Positions 34,700 to 43,858 of a stretch of DNA of 64,000 nt are shown one piece after another. The notes beneath the pieces were generated by a model, which did not search any database, had not been told where the DNA came from, and saw only the letters and a list, made by a program, of their open reading frames with translations. The position numbers were made by a program, and so were the translations under genes. Positions within the stretch are counted from its first letter, which is position 1; every line of letters begins with the position of its first letter. Where the stretch lies: NCBI GenBank assembly GCA_038561985.1, contig CP073276.1:930001-994000 (forward strand), written 5' to 3'. The stretch is from Petrimonas sulfuriphila (lineage in GTDB: Bacteria; Bacteroidota; Bacteroidia; Bacteroidales; Dysgonomonadaceae).

Positions 34700-35485
34700 A
34701 TGAAAAAAACAGCTTTATTATCCCTTTTGGCACTGATGATTATGGGTGGTGTCAACGCACAACAAATTAACAGACAATCGAATGCCGCTGACGGGCTGCT
34801 GTCGGGAGGCAAAACCATCCTAAAGGCCAATGTCCTGGGGTGGGCGACTCGGAATTTCGGGTTTTACGGAGAACAGATCATTAGCAAAAACATCAGCGCC
34901 GTACTGGGAGTGAACATTATGCCCCAGGGCGGGGTCCCTTATATCAGCCGTTTTTCAGATGATCCTCAACTCGAAGACATCCGGATTGGCACGTTCTCCT
35001 TTACACCCGAGGTGCGTTTTTACTTAAGCAGATCCGGCTACGGTAAAGGCTTCTATATTGCCCCATATTACAAATACGAACGCTTTAAAGCTTCAAACCT
35101 CTTAATAGAATTTGAAGATCAGAATAGTGTGCCGCAAGAAATTAACCTTAAGGGTAATTTGAATACCCACAGTGGGGGAGCAATTATCGGAATACAATGG
35201 TTAGCCGGGAAAAAGAAAAGGATCGCGCTTGACTGGACAATCATTGGTGCTCACTACGGCACGAACAAAGCCCTATTTAACGGAACTTCCAGCCATGAAA
35301 TGTCTGCAGAAGAGCAAGCAAGCCTGAAACAGGAGATTATAAAGAACCTGAACGACATTGAAATTGGAGGGAAAAAAATTGCGGAGGTAGAGCGTGTTGA
35401 TGTCTCTTCCACTTCGGCAGAAGCAAAGACCAAAGGCCCGTGGGCTTTTATCCGCTCTTCTTTCTCCATAGGATACAGGTTTTAA
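34700..35485 (+). CDS. Outer-membrane beta-barrel protein of unknown function
   Basis: 261 residues with a signal peptide (MKKTALLSLLALMIMGGVNAQ). The rest alternates polar and hydrophobic residues as in a small beta-barrel (VLGWATRNFGFYGEQIISKNISAVLGV, FTPEVRFYLSR, GFYIAPYYKYERF) and ends with an aromatic residue (SFSIGYRF), the usual signal for outer-membrane insertion. It resembles the DUF3575 type loosely. An insert of about 50 polar, helical residues (SAEEQASLKQEIIKNLNDIE) precedes the last strand. It lies directly upstream of the trp leader. Confidence 0.75.
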   Translation: MKKTALLSLLALMIMGGVNAQQINRQSNAADGLLSGGKTILKANVLGWATRNFGFYGEQIISKNISAVLGVNIMPQGGVPYISRFSDDPQLEDIRIGTFSFTPEVRFYLSRSGYGKGFYIAPYYKYERFKASNLLIEFEDQNSVPQEINLKGNLNTHSGGAIIGIQWLAGKKKRIALDWTIIGAHYGTNKALFNGTSSHEMSAEEQASLKQEIIKNLNDIEIGGKKIAEVERVDVSSTSAEAKTKGPWAFIRSSFSIGYRF

Positions 35486-35526: not shown

Positions 35527-35557
35527 ATTGCTTTTTATTTTTTTAAACCTACATTTG
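35527..35557 (+). promoter_or_regulatory. trp operon promoter
   Basis: ATTG (35527-35530) and TACATTTG (35550-35557) are separated by 19 bp, which is the spacing and sequence of the Bacteroidetes -33/-7 promoter. The leader peptide ATG follows 18 bp after the -7 element. Confidence 0.8.
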
Positions 35558-35575
35558 CAGCAAAATAATTGGAAT

Positions 35576-35635
35576 ATGAACATTTCTCTTGCTAACGGAT
35601 ATTGGTGGCGCTACTTACAACTCAACCGGTCGTAA
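35576..35635 (+). CDS. trpL: trp operon leader peptide
   Basis: A 19-codon frame, MNISLANGYWWRYLQLNRS, with tandem Trp codons (TGG TGG, 35603-35608) flanked by Tyr codons. It lies right after a good promoter and 48 nt before an intrinsic terminator that precedes trpB. This is the classical arrangement for translation-dependent attenuation: ribosomes stalled at the Trp codons would alter folding and let transcription pass the terminator. Confidence 0.85.
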   Translation: MNISLANGYWWRYLQLNRS

Positions 35636-35682
35636 GGGAAGCAGTCGTATCTATAGCAAGAACTCAATAACAATAAACATAG

Positions 35683-35714
35683 AAGAGCCTGTCGCACCTG
35701 CGACAGGCTCTTTT
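35683..35714 (+). terminator. trp attenuator (intrinsic terminator in the leader)
   Basis: AAGAGCCTGTCGC (35683-35695) pairs perfectly with GCGACAGGCTCTT (35700-35712) around an ACCT loop and runs into TTTT. It is a 13-bp, GC-rich stem located 28 nt before trpB. I could not identify a convincing antiterminator pairing by eye. Confidence 0.88.
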
Positions 35715-35742: not shown

Positions 35743-36930
35743 ATGCAGAATTTTTCAGTAGATAAGTCCGGATTTTACGGTGAATTTGGCGGAGCCTATA
35801 TTCCTGAAATCCTTCACAGATGCGTTACCGAATTGCAGGACGCCTATCTCAGAATCCTGGAAAGCGAATCGTTTAAAAAAGATTTTGACCAGCTTCTCCG
35901 GGATTACGTAGGCAGGCCTTCTCCGCTTTACTGGTCTGGGTACCTTTCCGGTAAACACGGATGCAGCATCTACCTCAAACGGGAAGACTTAAACCATACC
36001 GGGGCACACAAGATCAACAATACAGTCGGCCAGATTCTTGTTGCTAAACGATTGGGGAAAACCCGAATTATCGCCGAGACGGGTGCCGGGCAGCACGGTG
36101 TGGCAACCGCTACTGTTTGTGCTTTGATGCAGATGGAATGTATTGTTTATATGGGAAAAACCGATGTGGAACGCCAAGCCGTAAACGTCAAGAAGATGCA
36201 GATGCTGGGTGCAACGGTCGTTCCGGTTACTTCGGGGAACATGACGTTGAAGGATGCTACCAACGAAGCCATCCGCGACTGGTGCTGCAACCCGACGGAC
36301 ACACATTATATCATCGGATCCACCGTTGGGCCTCACCCCTATCCCGATATGGTAGCCCGGTTACAATCAGTCATCAGTGAAGAGATCAGGAAGCAGCTGA
36401 TGGAAAAGGAAAACCGTGCCGTTCCCGATTATCTTTTCGCCTGCGTGGGAGGGGGAAGCAACGCTGCGGGAACCATCTATCACTTCCTGAACGATGATGC
36501 GGTGAAAATCGTACTCGCCGAAGCAGGCGGCAAGGGAATCGACAGCGGAGAAACGGCAGCCACCATACAAATGGGCTCTATTGGAATTATCCACGGGTGC
36601 AAAACGTTGGTGATGCAAACGGAAGACGGACAAATCACGGAACCTTATTCCATTTCCGCCGGGCTGGACTATCCGGGTATTGGGCCCATCCACGCCCACC
36701 TGACAACTACCCGGCGGGCACAGGTAGTTGCCGTAAACGATGACGAAGCCCTAAAAGCCGCTTTCGAACTTACGCGTTATGAAGGCATTATCCCTGCATT
36801 GGAGTCGGCTCACGCACTCGCTGCGCTCGATAAAATCACTTTCAAACCGTCCGACATAGTTGTCCTGACACTTTCGGGAAGGGGGGATAAAGACCTGGAG
36901 ACTTACTTTAAACAGATTGATGCAGATTGA
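35743..36930 (+). CDS. trpB: Tryptophan synthase beta chain
   Basis: 395 residues, usual length. PLP lysine in [14 protein letters not shown], glycine-rich phosphate site in GGGSNAAGT, and the N-terminal [12 protein letters not shown]. It joins indole to serine, in complex with TrpA. It is the first structural gene of the operon, while its partner trpA is last, beyond the IS element. Confidence 0.97.
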
Positions 36931-36970
36931 TTTAAGATTGAAAACAGGTTGTTGTATACAGTCTGGAAAT

Positions 36971-37016
36971 CAATCTCTTTCAATCTCTTTCAATCTCTTT
37001 CAATCTCTTTCAATCT
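36971..37016 (+). repeat. 10-bp tandem repeat in the trpB-trpE gap
   Basis: CAATCTCTTT is repeated four times without change, followed by CAATCT. It occupies most of the 93-bp spacer and ends 8 bp before the trpE ATG. Copy number could vary by slippage and alter translation initiation. Confidence 0.85.
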
Positions 37017-37023
37017 AAAAAAT

Positions 37024-38430
37024 ATGACTTACAAATTCACAACAAACTGCAAAAAGGTCATGGGCGACCTGCATACACCGGTAAGCCTTTATCTGAAAAT
37101 CCGGGATGCCTTTCCCCAATCGGCATTGCTCGAAAGTTCCGATTATCATGCCAACGAAAACAGCACGTCGTACATCGGGCTGAATCCCATGGCGCATATC
37201 GACATAAACCGGGGCGAGTGCATCGAAACCTATCCCGACGGGAACACCGTCAGGAACAGGATATCCGGAGAGTTTACCATTTCCGGGGCATTAAACAATT
37301 TCATCAACAACTTCTGCATAAACGGCGACAACTCCTCCCTGACGGGGCTTTTTGGCTATACCACGTTCAACTGTGTGAAATATACCGAGGGGATCAACGT
37401 CAAGGAGAGTACCGAGGACCGTAACGACGCCCCCGACATGCGGTATATCCTCTATAAATACCTGATGGTTTTTAATCATCAGAAAGACGAACTGCTGCTG
37501 ATCGAACTGCTTGGCAATGAAGAGGAAAGCAAACTCTACAAGGTGGAGAGCCTTATCAATGCCCGGAATTTTGCATCGTACGACTTTTTTATTCACGGTC
37601 AGGAATCGAGCCCCATTACCGACGACCTGTTCAAGTCTTATGTCCGGCAGGGCATTGAACACTGCCACCGGGGCGATGTGTTTCAGATCGTTCTCTCGCG
37701 ACGCTTCGTGCAGGAATTTTCGGGAGACGACTTTAAGGTTTACCGCGCACTGCGAACCATCAACCCGTCCCCCTATCTCTTCTACTTTGATTTCGGCGGT
37801 TTTCGCATTTTCGGTTCTTCACCCGAAACACATTGTCAGATCAAGGGTAAAACCATCAGCATAGACCCTATTGCCGGAACGGCTAAGCGAACAGGGAACC
37901 TTCAGGAGGACGCGGAAGCTACCGAACGCCTCAAAAGCGACCCGAAAGAAAATGCCGAACACGTGATGCTAGTCGATCTGGCCCGGAACGATCTGAGCCG
38001 AAACGCACACAAAGTAAAACTCGATTTTTACCGGCAAGTACAGTATTATTCGCATGTCATTCATTTGGTCTCCCGCGTAAGCGGCACGCTCGACGAGGAC
38101 GTTAATCCCGTCCAGGCGTTTTTCGATACCTTCCCGGCCGGGACATTATCGGGAGCACCCAAGGTGAGGGCCATGCAACTGATATCGGAGATCGAGGAAC
38201 ACAACCGCGGGGCATATGGCGGCTGCATCGGGTTTATCGGATTTAACGGCGATATCAACCAGGCCATAACCATCCGCACGTTTGTAAGCCGGAATAACCA
38301 GCTCTGGTATCAGGCAGGCGCAGGGATTGTATCGCAGAGCATCGAAGAGAACGAGCTCCAGGAAGTTAAAAACAAACTGGGGGCCTTGAAGAAAGCAATT
38401 GACCTCGCGGAGAAGTTGAATAATGTGTGA
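37024..38430 (+). CDS. trpE: Anthranilate synthase component I
   Basis: 468 residues from the ATG at 37024; the open frame upstream crosses the 10-bp repeats and is not used. The N-terminal LLESSDYHAN region contains the ESS motif that forms the tryptophan feedback site. The catalytic chorismate domain has IDPIAGTAKRTG, DLARNDLSR, FPAGTLSGAPKVRAM and GGCIGFIGFNGD. It makes anthranilate from chorismate with TrpG. Confidence 0.96.
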   Translation: MTYKFTTNCKKVMGDLHTPVSLYLKIRDAFPQSALLESSDYHANENSTSYIGLNPMAHIDINRGECIETYPDGNTVRNRISGEFTISGALNNFINNFCINGDNSSLTGLFGYTTFNCVKYTEGINVKESTEDRNDAPDMRYILYKYLMVFNHQKDELLLIELLGNEEESKLYKVESLINARNFASYDFFIHGQESSPITDDLFKSYVRQGIEHCHRGDVFQIVLSRRFVQEFSGDDFKVYRALRTINPSPYLFYFDFGGFRIFGSSPETHCQIKGKTISIDPIAGTAKRTGNLQEDAEATERLKSDPKENAEHVMLVDLARNDLSRNAHKVKLDFYRQVQYYSHVIHLVSRVSGTLDEDVNPVQAFFDTFPAGTLSGAPKVRAMQLISEIEEHNRGAYGGCIGFIGFNGDINQAITIRTFVSRNNQLWYQAGAGIVSQSIEENELQEVKNKLGALKKAIDLAEKLNNV

Positions 38431-38459
38431 AGCTAAAACTGTCTAACTGTCTTAAAAAA

Positions 38460-39026
38460 ATGAAAATTCTGATATTCGATAATTACGATTCCTTCACCTA
38501 CAACCTGCGACACGTCGTCTGGGAGCTTGGGTACACCGATATAGACGTTATCCGGAACGATAAAATCGATCTGGACGATGTGGATAGATACGACAAAATC
38601 ATTCTTTCACCCGGTCCGGGAATTCCGGAGGAAGCAGGAGACCTGTTACCGCTAATCCACCGATATGCGCCGGGCAAAAGCATGCTGGGGGTTTGCCTGG
38701 GGCATCAGGCGATCGGATTGTCCTTTGGCGCCACCCTCGAGAATACTCCCCTGGTGCACCACGGCGTGCAAACACCCATCAGGATGGTAGGCAGCGATTA
38801 TATCTTCGATGCCCTCCCAACCCGGATAGAAGTGGGGCGGTACCATTCCTGGATTGTATCGGACAAAAACTTTCCCTCCCATCTGGAGATTACGGCCACA
38901 GATGAATCGGGCAACATAATGGCTTTGAAGCACAAAACATTAGACGTTCACGGCGTTCAGTTTCATCCCGAATCTGTCCTTACCCCGTTGGGCACGGAAA
39001 TCATAAAAAACTTTTTAGAAAAATGA
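38460..39026 (+). CDS. trpG: Anthranilate synthase component II (glutamine amidotransferase)
   Basis: 188 residues from the ATG at 38460 (MKILIFDNYDSFTYNL). The class I amidotransferase triad is visible: Cys in GVCLGHQAIG, and His and Glu in VQFHPESVLT. It supplies ammonia to TrpE. It could also serve folate synthesis as PabA, but the operon context favours Trp. Its stop overlaps the trpD start (ATGA). Confidence 0.95.
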   Translation: MKILIFDNYDSFTYNLRHVVWELGYTDIDVIRNDKIDLDDVDRYDKIILSPGPGIPEEAGDLLPLIHRYAPGKSMLGVCLGHQAIGLSFGATLENTPLVHHGVQTPIRMVGSDYIFDALPTRIEVGRYHSWIVSDKNFPSHLEITATDESGNIMALKHKTLDVHGVQFHPESVLTPLGTEIIKNFLEK

Positions 39027-40018
39027 AACATATACTTGTCAAACTACTGGATTATCAGTACCTGAGCCGCGACGAATCGCGCGAATTATTGATAGCAATC
39101 GTGAGGGGAGAAGTGCCCGACACACAGGTGGCGGCACTTATCACCATATTTCTGATGCGCAGCATTTCGGTAGAAGAAGTGCTCGGTTTCCGCGAAGCGC
39201 TGGTGGAGATGCGGGTTCCCGTCGACCTAAAAGAGTACAAGGCCATTGATATTGTAGGTACCGGTGGCGATGGGAAAAACACGTTCAACATTTCCACTTC
39301 GGCCTGTTTTGTAGTTGCCGGAGCCGGATACCCCGTTGTGAAACACGGAAATTACGGTGCCACTTCGGTCAGCGGCTCGAGCAACGCCATGGAACAGCAA
39401 GGGGTCAAATTCACAACCGACATCCACGTCCTGAGAAAAAGCATCGAGGCCGCCAACATCGCGTACCTTCACGCGCCTTTCTTCAGCCCTGCCCTAAAAG
39501 CGGTCGCCCCGGTGAGGAAAAGCCTGGGCGTGAGAAACTTTTTCAATGTACTCGGACCGCTCATCAACCCTTCCGATCCGGAGTATCAGTTGCTGGGCGT
39601 CTACGACTTATCGATGTCGCGGCTGTACAGCTATATTTACCAGGCAAGCCGAAAAAAATTCGGTATCGTTCACAGCCTGGACGGTTATGATGAAATTTCA
39701 CTCACCGGGCAATTCAAAGTGGTGACCAACAAGGGAGAACAACTTTTTATGCCCGAAGAGCTGGGGTTTAATCGTGTGAGACAGGAAGAAATTTTCGGAG
39801 GAAACACAATCGAAGATGTGGTTTCTGTATTCAACAGGGTACTCAACTGTACGGCAACGCAACCCCAGATGGATGTGGTTATTGCCAATGCCGCATTTGC
39901 CATTCAGATCATCGAAAACAAAAAACCGATTGCGGAGTGTATTGAGATTGCCAAAAACTCGTTGTACGGGAAAAAGGCATTGAATGCGCTCAAGAAATTC
40001 GTGGAAATAAACAGATAA
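39023..40018 (+). CDS. trpD: Anthranilate phosphoribosyltransferase
   Basis: 331 residues. The PRPP/Mg loop GTGGDGKNTFNIST and the KHGNYGATSVSGSSNAME stretch (KHGNRA... in most bacteria) identify the family. ALKAVAPVRKSLGVRNFFNVLGPLINP fits the conserved anthranilate-binding part. It transfers phosphoribose to anthranilate. Translationally coupled to trpG. Confidence 0.96.
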   Translation: MKHILVKLLDYQYLSRDESRELLIAIVRGEVPDTQVAALITIFLMRSISVEEVLGFREALVEMRVPVDLKEYKAIDIVGTGGDGKNTFNISTSACFVVAGAGYPVVKHGNYGATSVSGSSNAMEQQGVKFTTDIHVLRKSIEAANIAYLHAPFFSPALKAVAPVRKSLGVRNFFNVLGPLINPSDPEYQLLGVYDLSMSRLYSYIYQASRKKFGIVHSLDGYDEISLTGQFKVVTNKGEQLFMPEELGFNRVRQEEIFGGNTIEDVVSVFNRVLNCTATQPQMDVVIANAAFAIQIIENKKPIAECIEIAKNSLYGKKALNALKKFVEINR

Positions 40019-40027
40019 ACCACCCAT

Positions 40028-40816
40028 ATGAAAGATATTCTAAATGAAATAATCGCCCACAAACGGAACGAAATAGCGGCACAAAAAAACAGCATACCTT
40101 ATTCCCTGCTGGAACGGGAACTGGCAGACTGCCATTTACCCGTCTATTCCCTCAAGGATGCGTTGCTGCAATCCAGTACAGGAATCATTGCGGAGTTTAA
40201 ACGCCGCTCGCCAAGCAAGGGATGGATAAATCAACATGCCAACGCAGGGAATGCAACTAAAGGATATGAGGTTGCCGGAGCCACTGCACTATCGGTACTG
40301 ACCGATTCAACCTATTTTGGCGGCACGCTTGCCGATTTGCAGCATGCAGCCCGACAGGCAAAAATACCGGTAATACGCAAAGAATTTATCATAGACGAAT
40401 ACCAGATCCTGCAAGCCCGGTTATCGGGTGCAAGCGCCATCTTACTTATTGCTGCAGCACTGAGCATAGAAGAAACGCATCGGTTTATCCGGTTATCGAA
40501 ACAACTGGGTTTGGAGGTTTTACTGGAGCTTCATGATGAGAAGGAAATTGAATACACTTCTCTCGAAACCACCATTATCGGCATCAACAACCGGAACCTG
40601 GGTACTTTCGTAACGGACCTGAAAAAGTCGTACAGAATGGTAGAGTTGTTGCCTCGGGATGCCGTCTGGGTATCGGAAAGCGGAATTTCAAACCCAGAAA
40701 CGGTAAAAGAGTTACGCAAAGCCGGATACCGGGGATTTCTTATCGGAGAAAACTTCATGCGATCAGCTAATCCCGGTGCAAGCCTGGAAGAATTTATAAA
40801 AGGAGTGCTACAATAA
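40028..40816 (+). CDS. trpC: Indole-3-glycerol phosphate synthase
   Basis: 262 residues, TIM barrel. Catalytic Glu and Lys lie in IIAEFKRRSPSKGWI, the second active-site Lys in VIRKEFIIDEYQI, and INNRNLGTF and VSESGI follow. It is monofunctional; trpF is a separate gene 12 nt downstream. Confidence 0.96.
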   Translation: MKDILNEIIAHKRNEIAAQKNSIPYSLLERELADCHLPVYSLKDALLQSSTGIIAEFKRRSPSKGWINQHANAGNATKGYEVAGATALSVLTDSTYFGGTLADLQHAARQAKIPVIRKEFIIDEYQILQARLSGASAILLIAAALSIEETHRFIRLSKQLGLEVLLELHDEKEIEYTSLETTIIGINNRNLGTFVTDLKKSYRMVELLPRDAVWVSESGISNPETVKELRKAGYRGFLIGENFMRSANPGASLEEFIKGVLQ

Positions 40817-40828
40817 CAAAATATACAC

Positions 40829-41476
40829 ATGAAATTAGTTAAAGTATGCGGGATGCGCGAAGCAACCAACATCCGCGAAGTAGAACAAGCGGGAGCGGAT
40901 TGGATAGGATTTATTTTTTATCCGGAATCACCGCGTTTTGTGCATGAGGTTCCGGACTATTTACCCAGGAAATCCAAACGAGTTGGAGTTTTTGTGAACG
41001 CGCCGAAAGAAAAAATTAGTGAAACGATATCTCTTTTCGGATTGGATCTGGTACAGCTTCATGGCAATGAATCGCCCGAATTTTGTGAGAATATACGCCG
41101 AAGCGGGGTAAAAGTAATCAAATCCTTCCGGGTCGGCGATGAATTCAAGGAGGAAGAGGTGGAGCCCTATCACGGCAAATGCGACTATTTTCTGTTCGAT
41201 ACCCAAACATCGTTGTACGGCGGTTCGGGGGAGAAATTTAACTGGGAGACTCTTTTAAATTACCGTGGTAATACGTTTTTTTTACTGAGCGGCGGCATAA
41301 CACCGGGCGATGCAGAAGCATTAAAAACTTTCTCGTACCCGAAATGCATCGGAGTAGATATCAACAGTAAATTTGAAATCAGCCCCGCTGTTAAAGACGC
41401 AAAGTTGGTTAAACAGTTTATTAAAGTCATAAAAAATCCGGGAAACAAGATAGACAACAAAACATTATTAATTTAG
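40829..41476 (+). CDS. trpF: Phosphoribosylanthranilate isomerase
   Basis: 215 residues. The N-terminal KVCGMRE carries the catalytic Cys. Then come LDLVQLHGNESPEFC, a catalytic Asp region in FLFDTQ, and LSGGITPGDAE with GVDINSKFE at the phosphate site. The last residues (NPGNKIDNKTLLI) look looser than the family usually shows. The IS element begins shortly after the stop, so the native end may have been altered by the insertion. Confidence 0.94.
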   Translation: MKLVKVCGMREATNIREVEQAGADWIGFIFYPESPRFVHEVPDYLPRKSKRVGVFVNAPKEKISETISLFGLDLVQLHGNESPEFCENIRRSGVKVIKSFRVGDEFKEEEVEPYHGKCDYFLFDTQTSLYGGSGEKFNWETLLNYRGNTFFLLSGGITPGDAEALKTFSYPKCIGVDINSKFEISPAVKDAKLVKQFIKVIKNPGNKIDNKTLLI

Positions 41477-41588
41477 TTCCTATGTTTAAACTTGGAAAAG
41501 ACGGATAGGTAGTCCAGTAAAAAAGCTATATCATTTTAGTTAACTTTGTTTTTGAGAGATAACAATCTTAACTTAAACAATATAGCTT

Positions 41589-42674
41589 ATGAATACAAGG
41601 CAAAGTAACAAATTAGATTTCAAAGGACAAAATATTTACATAGGAATTGATGTCCATTTGAAGAGTTGGTCGGTATCGGTATTGTCGGAACATTCGGTTC
41701 TAAAGAGGTTCAGTCAATCTCCAAGTCCGGAATCGCTGCACAAGTTTTTGACAACCCATTATCCGGGAGCGGATTATCATTCGGTTTATGAAGCGGGCTT
41801 CAGCGGGTTCTGGATACATGAGAAGTTAGTAACATTGGGGATCAACAATATCGTAGTCAATCCGGCGGATGTGCCGACCATGAGTAAGGAGAAATTGCGC
41901 AAGACCGACGCGGTTGATTGCGGGAAACTGGCCAGGGAGTTACGGTCGGGAACATTAAAAGGTATTTATGTGCCGGATATAGCCACCCTGGAAATGCGTT
42001 CTTTGATAAGGTTGAGAAACAGGATCGTAAAAGACACCACGAGGGAGAAGAACCGGATAAAGTCATTTTTACGCTTCCACGGGATAGATATCCCGGAGGA
42101 ATTCACACGTTATTCGGTGGGTAACTGGTCAAAGCGGTTTCTGGCATGGCTACGCGAAGTACTCCTTTCTACCGAATATGGAAAGGAAGCACTGGGGATA
42201 CATATTGAGCAGTTTGTACGCCTGCGGGGCATACTCCTGGGGCAAACACGCCTGCTGCGTGCGTTATCCCGCAGTGATGCACTCAAGGAGCCAATACGTC
42301 TGCTGACTTCGGTCCCGGGAATAGGGATAACCACCGCCATGTCGTTGGCGGTCGAGATAGACGATATCGGGCGGTTTTGCAATGCCGATGCGCTGGCCTC
42401 CTACATCGGTCTGATACCGATGTGTCATTCCAGCGGGGAAAGTCAGGCAAACGGTAACATCACGGTTCGCAAGCACGCCATGTTGCGCTGTTATATAATC
42501 GAGGCTGCCTGGATAGCCATAAGGAAAGACCCGGCAATGACGATGGCTTACCAAGGGTACCGTAAACGGATGAACGCTCAGAAGGCCATCGTCAAGATTG
42601 CCCGTAAACTGGTGAACAGGATATTTTTCGTACTCAAACATGGACAGGAATATGTGCCTTGTGTTGTCAATTAA
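41589..42674 (+). CDS. IS110-family transposase (DEDD recombinase)
   Basis: 361 residues. The N-terminal RuvC-like DEDD domain begins YIGIDVHLKSWSVSV (first Asp), with YEAGFSGFWIHEKL (Glu) and RKTDAVDCGKLARELRSG (Asp pair). The C-terminal Tnp20 domain has LLTSVPGIGITTAMSLAVEI, ALASYIGLIPMCHSSG, and the catalytic Ser region of this family near MCHSSGESQANGNITVRKH. It appears full length. IS110 enzymes act with a bridge RNA made from the element's own non-coding end. Confidence 0.95.
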   Translation: MNTRQSNKLDFKGQNIYIGIDVHLKSWSVSVLSEHSVLKRFSQSPSPESLHKFLTTHYPGADYHSVYEAGFSGFWIHEKLVTLGINNIVVNPADVPTMSKEKLRKTDAVDCGKLARELRSGTLKGIYVPDIATLEMRSLIRLRNRIVKDTTREKNRIKSFLRFHGIDIPEEFTRYSVGNWSKRFLAWLREVLLSTEYGKEALGIHIEQFVRLRGILLGQTRLLRALSRSDALKEPIRLLTSVPGIGITTAMSLAVEIDDIGRFCNADALASYIGLIPMCHSSGESQANGNITVRKHAMLRCYIIEAAWIAIRKDPAMTMAYQGYRKRMNAQKAIVKIARKLVNRIFFVLKHGQEYVPCVVN

Positions 42675-42896
42675 CATACAATCCTACAGTGTAAGCAATT
42701 TTTCCACGGGGGAAACACTATCATAATGTTGCAGCTTTGAAGTCTGCTTAAATTAGTATGTGACCCCCGCCTATCGTAAACTGATACAGGAATTTGCAGC
42801 TCCCGCCGAAAGGACGGACAGTCTGCTGTGGAAAGATTGTTTACCGTAGGATGTAGGATCGGGTTTTCTTAGCCATATGGACAGTATCAGTAATAC
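42675..42896 (+). ncRNA. Candidate bridge RNA region of the IS110 element
   Basis: About 220 nt of non-coding DNA with clear folding potential. AGTGT...ACACT closes a hairpin with inner TTTCC/GGAAA (42690s-42720). GCAG/CTGC closes another near 42731. CTGATAC (42781-42787) pairs with GTATCAG (about 42884-42890), enclosing GCAG...CTGC around CCGCC-GAAA-GG. IS1111-group members of the IS110 family place their bridge RNA 3' of the transposase, which this would fit. The guide loops cannot be assigned without the empty site. Confidence 0.35.
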
Positions 42897-42924
42897 AAAA
42901 AGGGAGGTAGAATCTCGACCTCCC
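42897..42924 (-). terminator. Intrinsic terminator of the candidate small RNA
   Basis: On the minus strand GGGAGGT and ACCTCCC form a 7-bp GC-rich stem with a 9-nt loop, followed directly by TTTTTG. Confidence 0.65.
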
Positions 42925-43006
42925 CCAGTAGCATTACTGCGTACCGTCAGGGTGCTTATTGCTGACAGGTTGCCCCCCGGCAGAGCCTGTTTCCTCTTAA
43001 CACCCT
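42897..43006 (-). ncRNA. Candidate small structured RNA on the minus strand
   Basis: A TATCTTTG -7 box (43018-43011, minus) is followed at the right distance by a structured stretch. It has an outer stem GTCAGGGTG/CACCCTGAC enclosing ACAGG/CCTGT and TGCC/GGCA, then a CAGTA/TACTG hairpin. Last comes GGGAGGT/ACCTCCC with TTTTTG, a good intrinsic terminator. Together this makes a transcription unit of about 110 nt with no convincing reading frame. It is not a class I recognise. SRP RNA, 6S RNA and known riboswitch cores were considered and do not fit. Confidence 0.5.
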
Positions 43007-43010
43007 GACA

Positions 43011-43018
43011 CAAAGATA
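43011..43018 (-). promoter_or_regulatory. -7 promoter element for the candidate small RNA
   Basis: TATCTTTG on the minus strand. The structured RNA starts 2-5 nt downstream. The upstream 19-21 bp hold no clear TTTG. Confidence 0.45.
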
Positions 43019-43081
43019 AAATTTAAAAGTTAATTAAAGTGAATTGTCCAATTTTATTTGGATTTTAAATGGAAAATAATT

Positions 43082-43858
43082 ATGAACAGAATAGATGAGT
43101 TATTTCAACGAAAAAAGAACAACATTTTATCCGTCTATTTCACGGCTGGATTCCCCAACCTCGGTGACACCGTTCCGGTCATTCAATCGCTCGAAAAAAA
43201 CGGTGTGGAACTGATTGAAATAGGCATCCCTTTCAGCGACCCTATGGCAGACGGTCCCGTCATCCAGGCGTCGGGGACACAGGCACTCAAGAACGGCATG
43301 AGCCTTCGGGTGCTCTTCGAGCAACTCTCGCGGGTCCGCTCGTCGGCGCAGATCCCTCTGGTATTGATGGGTTACCTGAACCCCATTCTTCAATTCGGCT
43401 TTAACACATTCTGCTCCGAAGCGCAACGCTGCGGGATCGACGGGATCATCATTCCCGATTTACCGTTTGCCGAATACATGAGGGAGTATAAAGCCGTTGC
43501 CGAAAAACACGGATTGCGTATGATCATGCTCATCACTACGGAAACGTCGGAAGAACGCATCCGTTTAATTGACAAAAATACTGGCGGGTTTATCTATATG
43601 GTCTCGTCGGCATCGGTTACCGGAGCAAAAACCGGTTTCGGGGAAGACAACCTGCAATATTTTAAGCGCGTTAACGCTATGAACCTCAGGAACCCCAGGC
43701 TTATCGGGTTCGGCATCTCCAACAAAATCACCTTCGATGCGGCTTGTGAACATGCTTCGGGAGCCATTATCGGCAGTAAGTTCGTCTCCTTGCTCGGAAG
43801 TGAAAAATCGGTGGAGGCTGCGGTACAAAAATTGAAAAAATCTATTGCCAATTATTAA
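43082..43858 (+). CDS. trpA: Tryptophan synthase alpha chain
   Basis: 258 residues from ATG 43082 (MNRIDELFQRKK). Catalytic Glu and Asp lie in LIEIGIPFSDPMADGPVIQ and IDGIIIPDLPFAEY; loop VSSASVTGAKTGF and phosphate site GFGISNK follow. It cleaves indole-3-glycerol phosphate and channels indole to TrpB. The IS element separates it from the rest of the operon, so its expression depends on read-through or on a promoter supplied by the insertion. Confidence 0.96.
   Translation: MNRIDELFQRKKNNILSVYFTAGFPNLGDTVPVIQSLEKNGVELIEIGIPFSDPMADGPVIQASGTQALKNGMSLRVLFEQLSRVRSSAQIPLVLMGYLNPILQFGFNTFCSEAQRCGIDGIIIPDLPFAEYMREYKAVAEKHGLRMIMLITTETSEERIRLIDKNTGGFIYMVSSASVTGAKTGFGEDNLQYFKRVNAMNLRNPRLIGFGISNKITFDAACEHASGAIIGSKFVSLLGSEKSVEAAVQKLKKSIANY

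Follow-up and report, generated by a model that had tools for sequence, protein, structure and literature searches.

A trp attenuator of Petrimonas sulfuriphila related to Bacteroid-trp, with a probable reversed antiterminator directed at the terminator loop and 3' arm

In the trp operon of Escherichia coli, attenuation is built from tandem Trp codons, a ribosome whose position acts as the sensor, mutually exclusive hairpins and an intrinsic terminator. The second strand of this leader pairs with the 5' arm of the terminator (2:3 pairing), and an antiterminator that captures the 5' arm is the rule in other attenuators.

For Bacteroidota, Rfam describes RF01692 (Bacteroid-trp) as a tryptophan peptide leader. 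It was tabulated as a probable cis-regulatory RNA by Weinberg et al. (2010; PMC2864571), the main text of which names it once, in Table 1. The element of F. psychrophilum has been described as resembling the E. coli trp leader in structure (PMC6414381), and Bacteroid-trp is also named in PMC4977773. A Trp attenuator is not new for Bacteroidota, because RF01692 is this element; a description of its antiterminator, and hence of its switching, was not found in the accessible parts of the open-licence literature (main text of PMC2864571, PMC6414381, PMC3766115, PMC4833913).

The DNA analysed here, referred to as the window, is a stretch of 64,000 nucleotides from Petrimonas sulfuriphila (Dysgonomonadaceae; contig CP073276.1, positions 930,001 to 994,000), the genome of which is one contig of 3.83 Mb. 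A promoter, a 19-codon frame with TGG TGG and a 13-bp terminator followed by trpB had been proposed by a sequence-only reading, and all are present (Table 1). The spacing from the Trp codons to the terminator, given there as about 75 nt, is 74 nt between the end of the second W codon and the start of the stem. The segment 35560–35720 folds with −52.6 kcal/mol (z −5.5), and none of 200 shuffles was as good. The −7 box belongs to the TAnnTTTG type, termed Bacteroidetes-specific in PMC6414381, and such a box lies at most 75 nt 5' of the W run in 110 of the 144 leaders introduced below (two of the 110 without the full 75 nt). The gene of a DUF3575 protein (34700–35485) ends about 40 nt 5' of the trp promoter, and a simple scan called no terminator between the two. 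Farther downstream, an IS110-type transposase gene (41589–42674) lies between trpF and trpA and ends about 0.4 kb 5' of trpA.

Table 1. Features of the trp leader and operon in the window (P, Q, R and S denote the RNA strands discussed in the text).
Feature	Position	Strand	Basis or remark
Upstream promoter element ATTG	35527..35530	+	19 nt 5' of the −7 box; read from sequence
−7 box TACATTTG (TAnnTTTG type)	35550..35557	+	read from sequence
Leader ORF MNISLANGYWWRYLQLNRS with TAA stop	35576..35635	+	19 codons; ATG at 35576, stop 35633–35635
Sensing codons TGG TGG	35603..35608	+	codons 10 and 11; read from sequence
Leader hairpin, holding P and Q without ribosome	35587..35661	+	fold; coincides with the RF01692 structure region
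Strand P (CUUAC)	35614..35618	+	fold; pairs with GUAAG of Q; taken to be covered by a ribosome stalled on WW
Strand Q (GUCGUAAG), proposed antiterminator strand	35629..35636	+	spans the stop codon
Terminator 5' arm R (AAGAGCCUGUCGC)	35683..35695	+	sequence, fold, terminator finder
Terminator loop ACCU	35696..35699	+	35697–35699 opposite Q in the proposed antiterminator
Terminator 3' arm S (GCGACAGGCUCUU)	35700..35712	+	sequence, fold, terminator finder
Loop and top of 3' arm (CCUGCGAC), proposed partner of Q	35697..35704	+	duplex search, alignment
T run (TTTT)	35711..35714	+	read from sequence
trpB, first gene of the operon	35743..36930	+	ATG at 35743
trpE, trpG, trpD, trpC, trpF, IS110-type transposase, trpA	36949..43858	+	gene order 3' of trpB

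Aligned directly with RF01692, the leader of the window scores 38.5 bits (E 0.0079) over the full length of the model (1–131), below the gathering cut-off of 49 bits. Twenty related loci were chosen for comparison, and 16 of them passed this cut-off, among which are L006 of the same genus (52.0 bits) and L154 of B. fragilis (108.5 bits); the four below it are L004 from the same species, L007 from the same genus, L017 and L050. Among 392 genomes drawn from the phylum 45 had a match, 41 of them over the cut-off, and among 295 drawn from the order 28 had one, 15 over the cut-off; the own genome gave no match in either search, the filters of which are stricter than those of the direct alignment. 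Other traits of the family are found: the leader lies upstream of a trp operon in Bacteroidota, and according to alignment and fold its hairpin carries the WW codons in the 5' part and UCGUAA in the inner 3' arm. The leader can be regarded as a divergent relative of RF01692, with homology that extends over all 131 positions of the model and, as in that family, a location upstream of trp genes. Unlike the complete element in the window, the match stops inside the 5' arm of the terminator, at 35693; the loop, the 3' arm and any pairing of Q with them are therefore absent from the model. RF00513 (Trp_leader), the model of the E. coli attenuator, has no match listed on the window (E up to 1, nor at the gathering cut-off), and matches to ar14, Thr_leader, OrzO-P, BTnc201, sau-63 and AaHKsRNA41 lie far below their Rfam cut-offs and were taken as chance.

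Conservation was assessed in the own family, Dysgonomonadaceae. Of its 101 genomes 81 have TrpB, and 80 upstream stretches were used (one genome is without a trpB start). A short ATG ORF with TGGTGG was found by plain pattern in 74. The six misses comprise three cuts at contig ends, one leader located farther upstream behind an N-masked stretch, and two leaders with TGG CGG (W-R). All 77 uncut stretches thus hold a leader, 75 with WW and two with W-R, and the tandem Trp codons prove to be kept among relatives. A further 67 leaders are RF01692 matches outside the own family, giving 144 leaders with 17 family labels; it should be noted that the 77 were found via TrpB, whereas the 67 were picked by a model covering WW and Q and leaving out the loop and S. 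Our own terminator finder placed an intrinsic terminator before the first gene in all 144. Applied to 80 named TrpB loci (the best 80 of at least 592), the plain pattern detected a leader in 19, which is an undercount because it misses L152, identical in contig to G050, where a leader is present.

Ribosome-mediated attenuation is the best reading of this leader, WW being kept and an alternative pairing being available; neither of the outcomes that would have refuted it according to the sequence-only reading, loss of WW among relatives or lack of an alternative fold, was observed. The sequence-only reading as a whole is supported in part, since the element is not new for the phylum, RF01692 already covering it, and the alternative pairing involves another part of the terminator than the 5' arm. 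The suggestion that Tyr codons on both sides of WW add a second input fared poorly. Of the 144 leaders, 74 carry Tyr before the W run and 19 carry it as the second residue behind the run; for the 77 leaders of the own family the figures are 66 and 16. A second Tyr input was rejected, since Tyr is not conserved 3' of the W run.

For the alternative pairing, the part of every leader between the W run and the terminator was searched for duplexes with a target made up of the terminator loop and the adjoining 6 nt of S. The best site overlaps Q (GUCGURAG, which holds the stop of the ORF) in 140 of 144 leaders, a loose criterion under which at least five of the 140 are too weak to count as support (two f4 leaders, the f6 leader, G481 and G129, −3.4 to −4.3 kcal/mol). 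In the own family the median duplex energy is −11.0 kcal/mol against a shuffle mean of −6.2 kcal/mol. The leader of the window by itself would not reveal the pairing, because its Q:S duplex is unremarkable and 7 out of 100 shuffles equal it. When loop and S were swapped in from other families, the own-family mean was −8.4 kcal/mol compared with the native median of −11.0; much of the energy is kept because few Q/S types exist.

In a sequence-only MAFFT alignment, 1019 of 1151 cells in the register of eight Q:S pairs are standard pairs, as opposed to 21–52% when the register is slid by 1–3 columns. Permutation of S among the 81 distinct rows reached the observed value of 0.875 in none of 2000 trials (mean 0.829, sd 0.006; the test ignores the tree). 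The register is partly fixed by bases that are unpaired in the terminator, with Q6 opposite a loop U or C. In 117 of 144 leaders the stop starts at Q5 and Q6 is its middle base (UAA or UGA), and the choice between the two follows the loop base: Q6 and its partner form GC in 80 leaders, AU in 55, GU in 4 and other combinations in 5. Two-sided changes are seen in G595 (ACCGUGAG/CUUACGGU), in G772 (GUCGUGAA/UUCACGAC) and in L167 (Q5 C-G). The helix of the window type is broken by one A·C mismatch, which is mended by a loop insertion in G001–G003 and by an A to G change in G036. A TrpB tree of 87 rows requires a minimum of 4 changes at Q6 and 7 at its partner; a test of independent pairs gave two supported pairs, both concordant, with too few independent changes to reach significance. 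Conservation of the elements, their complementarity and the compensatory changes can thus be read from the aligned leaders.

Fewer than five contiguous in-register pairs are present in 8 of 144 leaders, including the two f4 and the one f6. These three (G461 and G449, f4; G381, f6) are RF01692 matches with a W-rich short ORF and a terminator and have no convincing in-register Q:loop pairing. They may use a different switch or be false family members.

Contact of Q with the loop might also leave most of the terminator closed, as a loop contact or pseudoknot that acts as a stabiliser or timing device. In some leaders the pairing overlaps only the top three terminator pairs, and a lower stem of about 8–9 pairs could persist. 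We nevertheless regard this as unlikely: if Q:loop promoted termination, starvation, which sets Q free, would shut the operon, which is the wrong sign, and in the in-register cases the pairing includes stem bases of S.

The sequence-only reading had suggested seeking the alternative pairing, which does exist, at the 5' arm R. This is the topology of the E. coli leader, with which the leader of the window shares tandem Trp codons, sensing by ribosome position, exclusive hairpins and an intrinsic terminator; the second strand in E. coli pairs with the 5' arm, whereas Q is itself similar to the 5' arm and would pair with the loop and the 3' arm. The match of Q with the loop could then be a mere by-product of this resemblance, the actual partner being R as in other attenuators. 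A comparison was possible with his and phe leaders from the own family. In the own genome (G000, contig 1), a his leader (L232, MKVNKLHHHHFHTCNQAS) with promoter-like TATCTTTG and a terminator precedes hisG at about 3.199 Mb on the minus strand, and a Phe/Tyr leader (L233, MKQNHFAYSFYFYFYFSK) with a terminator precedes a prephenate dehydratase gene at about 1.486 Mb; both prefer the 5' arm. Counts for the own family are based on 30 of 37 places each, no leader being found in 2 of the 30 his and 3 of the 30 phe loci, and three phe frames judged to be misread (L264, L266, L273) were dropped before the preferred arm was compared. The 5' arm is preferred by 26 of 28 his and 24 of 24 phe leaders, but by none of the 77 trp leaders of the own family and 6 of the 67 outside it; loop plus S is preferred by 77 of 77 and 61 of 67, respectively. 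One measure therefore yields the textbook answer where it is expected and the opposite for trp. The his and phe leaders share with trp a short ORF with sensing codons, a terminator before a biosynthetic gene and a stop near the switching strand, and differ in their preference for the 5' arm and in their variable loops (26 distinct loops in 28 his, 16 in 24 phe and 10 in 77 trp leaders).

Pairing of the trp leader with R thus fits the his and phe leaders and the few trp leaders outside the own family that favour the 5' arm. It is, however, very unlikely for the trp leaders of the own family, which show no better pairing with R than their shuffles do (a mean fraction of 0.67 of the shuffles reaches the native value), and the loop bases, unpaired in the terminator, co-vary with Q. 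Attenuators beyond Proteobacteria were reportedly treated by Vitreschak in 2004, and his and phe attenuation in Bacteroidetes may already be in print.

That the element merely yields a short RNA, made constitutively and always ended by the terminator, while trpB is unregulated, would agree with the short T run of the window's terminator (TTTT), which the simple scan did not call on the plus strand; we consider it highly improbable in view of W codons, stop position and alternative pairing being kept in most of the 144 leaders. Scarcely credible is the conservation of Q as a peptide acting on the ribosome (a C-terminal motif such as L-Q-L-x-K/R-S): the leader peptides end alike in much of the own family, yet Q RNA is unchanged in G037, G038, G040, G070 and G077, where the frame extends beyond Q, the synonymous stop choice follows the loop base, and nascent-peptide arrest is disfavoured by the frame-shifted leaders that retain Q.

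The reversed pairing of Q with loop and S was further explored by computing three states, with energies for naked RNA at 37 °C, an idealised RNA polymerase and an assumed footprint of the stalled ribosome reaching up to 15 nt past the first base of the first W. In folds without ribosome, at least four of the eight Q bases are held by the P region in 140 of 144 leaders. A ribosome stalled at the second W would cover P and expose Q, and one that has reached the stop would occupy Q, the first base of the stop being Q5 in 117 of 144 leaders. Among the five leaders with an extended frame, four have a stop that begins 9–11 nt past Q1. In G040 the distance is 24 nt, and a ribosome that has reached this stop may fail to cover Q.

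Forced comparison of Q:S with R:S was made for 138 leaders, leaving out six without an in-register run of 4 bp. For the stalled ribosome, Q:S is predicted to beat R:S in 124 of the 138 once 7 nt of S have emerged, and the number falls to 88 at 8 nt and 9 at 10 nt; without ribosome it is 5 of 138 at 7 nt. Unforced folds gave a similar picture: with 6 nt of the 3' arm out, the upstream pairing appeared in 137 of 144 stalled leaders, in none of the 144 with the ribosome at the stop and in 22 of 144 without ribosome, and with shuffled linkers in the stalled state it appeared in 240 of 1440. At 10 nt it was found in 9 of 144 stalled folds. Both the comparison of leaders and the energy model point to an antiterminator that excludes the terminator and depends on the position of the ribosome. 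Since R:S overtakes as S emerges, even in the stalled state, the switch would have to be kinetic, and we infer that Q:S pairing antiterminates in the cell in this manner.

According to this model, P and Q would pair in the leader hairpin when the leader is not translated, the terminator R:S would form and transcription would stop. With enough Trp, the ribosome would reach the stop inside Q and mask Q, again permitting R:S and termination. Under Trp starvation, a ribosome stalled on WW would cover P and free Q, which could then capture the loop and the top of the emerging 3' arm before R closes on it; once Q:S has formed, RNA polymerase would continue into trpB. Taken together, we consider it likely that the window contains a ribosome-mediated trp attenuator that is related to RF01692, though diverged from it, and that works by a reversed antiterminator.

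Beyond this locus, Bacteroid-trp leaders across Bacteroidota probably use the same reversed arrangement, in which a strand adjacent to the stop imitates the 5' arm and binds the loop together with the top of the 3' arm. The loop would be a dedicated receptor, the UAA/UGA stop changing with it, and with textbook his and phe leaders opposite topologies would occur in one genome. Textbooks usually present trp attenuation with one topology. Should the proposal be true, a family long known as a structure model would gain a mechanism, and the loop and 3' arm that it acts on would be an unusual target. Because the loop bases lie outside the stem, the antiterminator would be separable from the terminator and its target easily testable. 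The arrangement would also supply a rule for finding uncatalogued attenuators, namely a terminator loop complementary to the strand over the stop of a short ORF.
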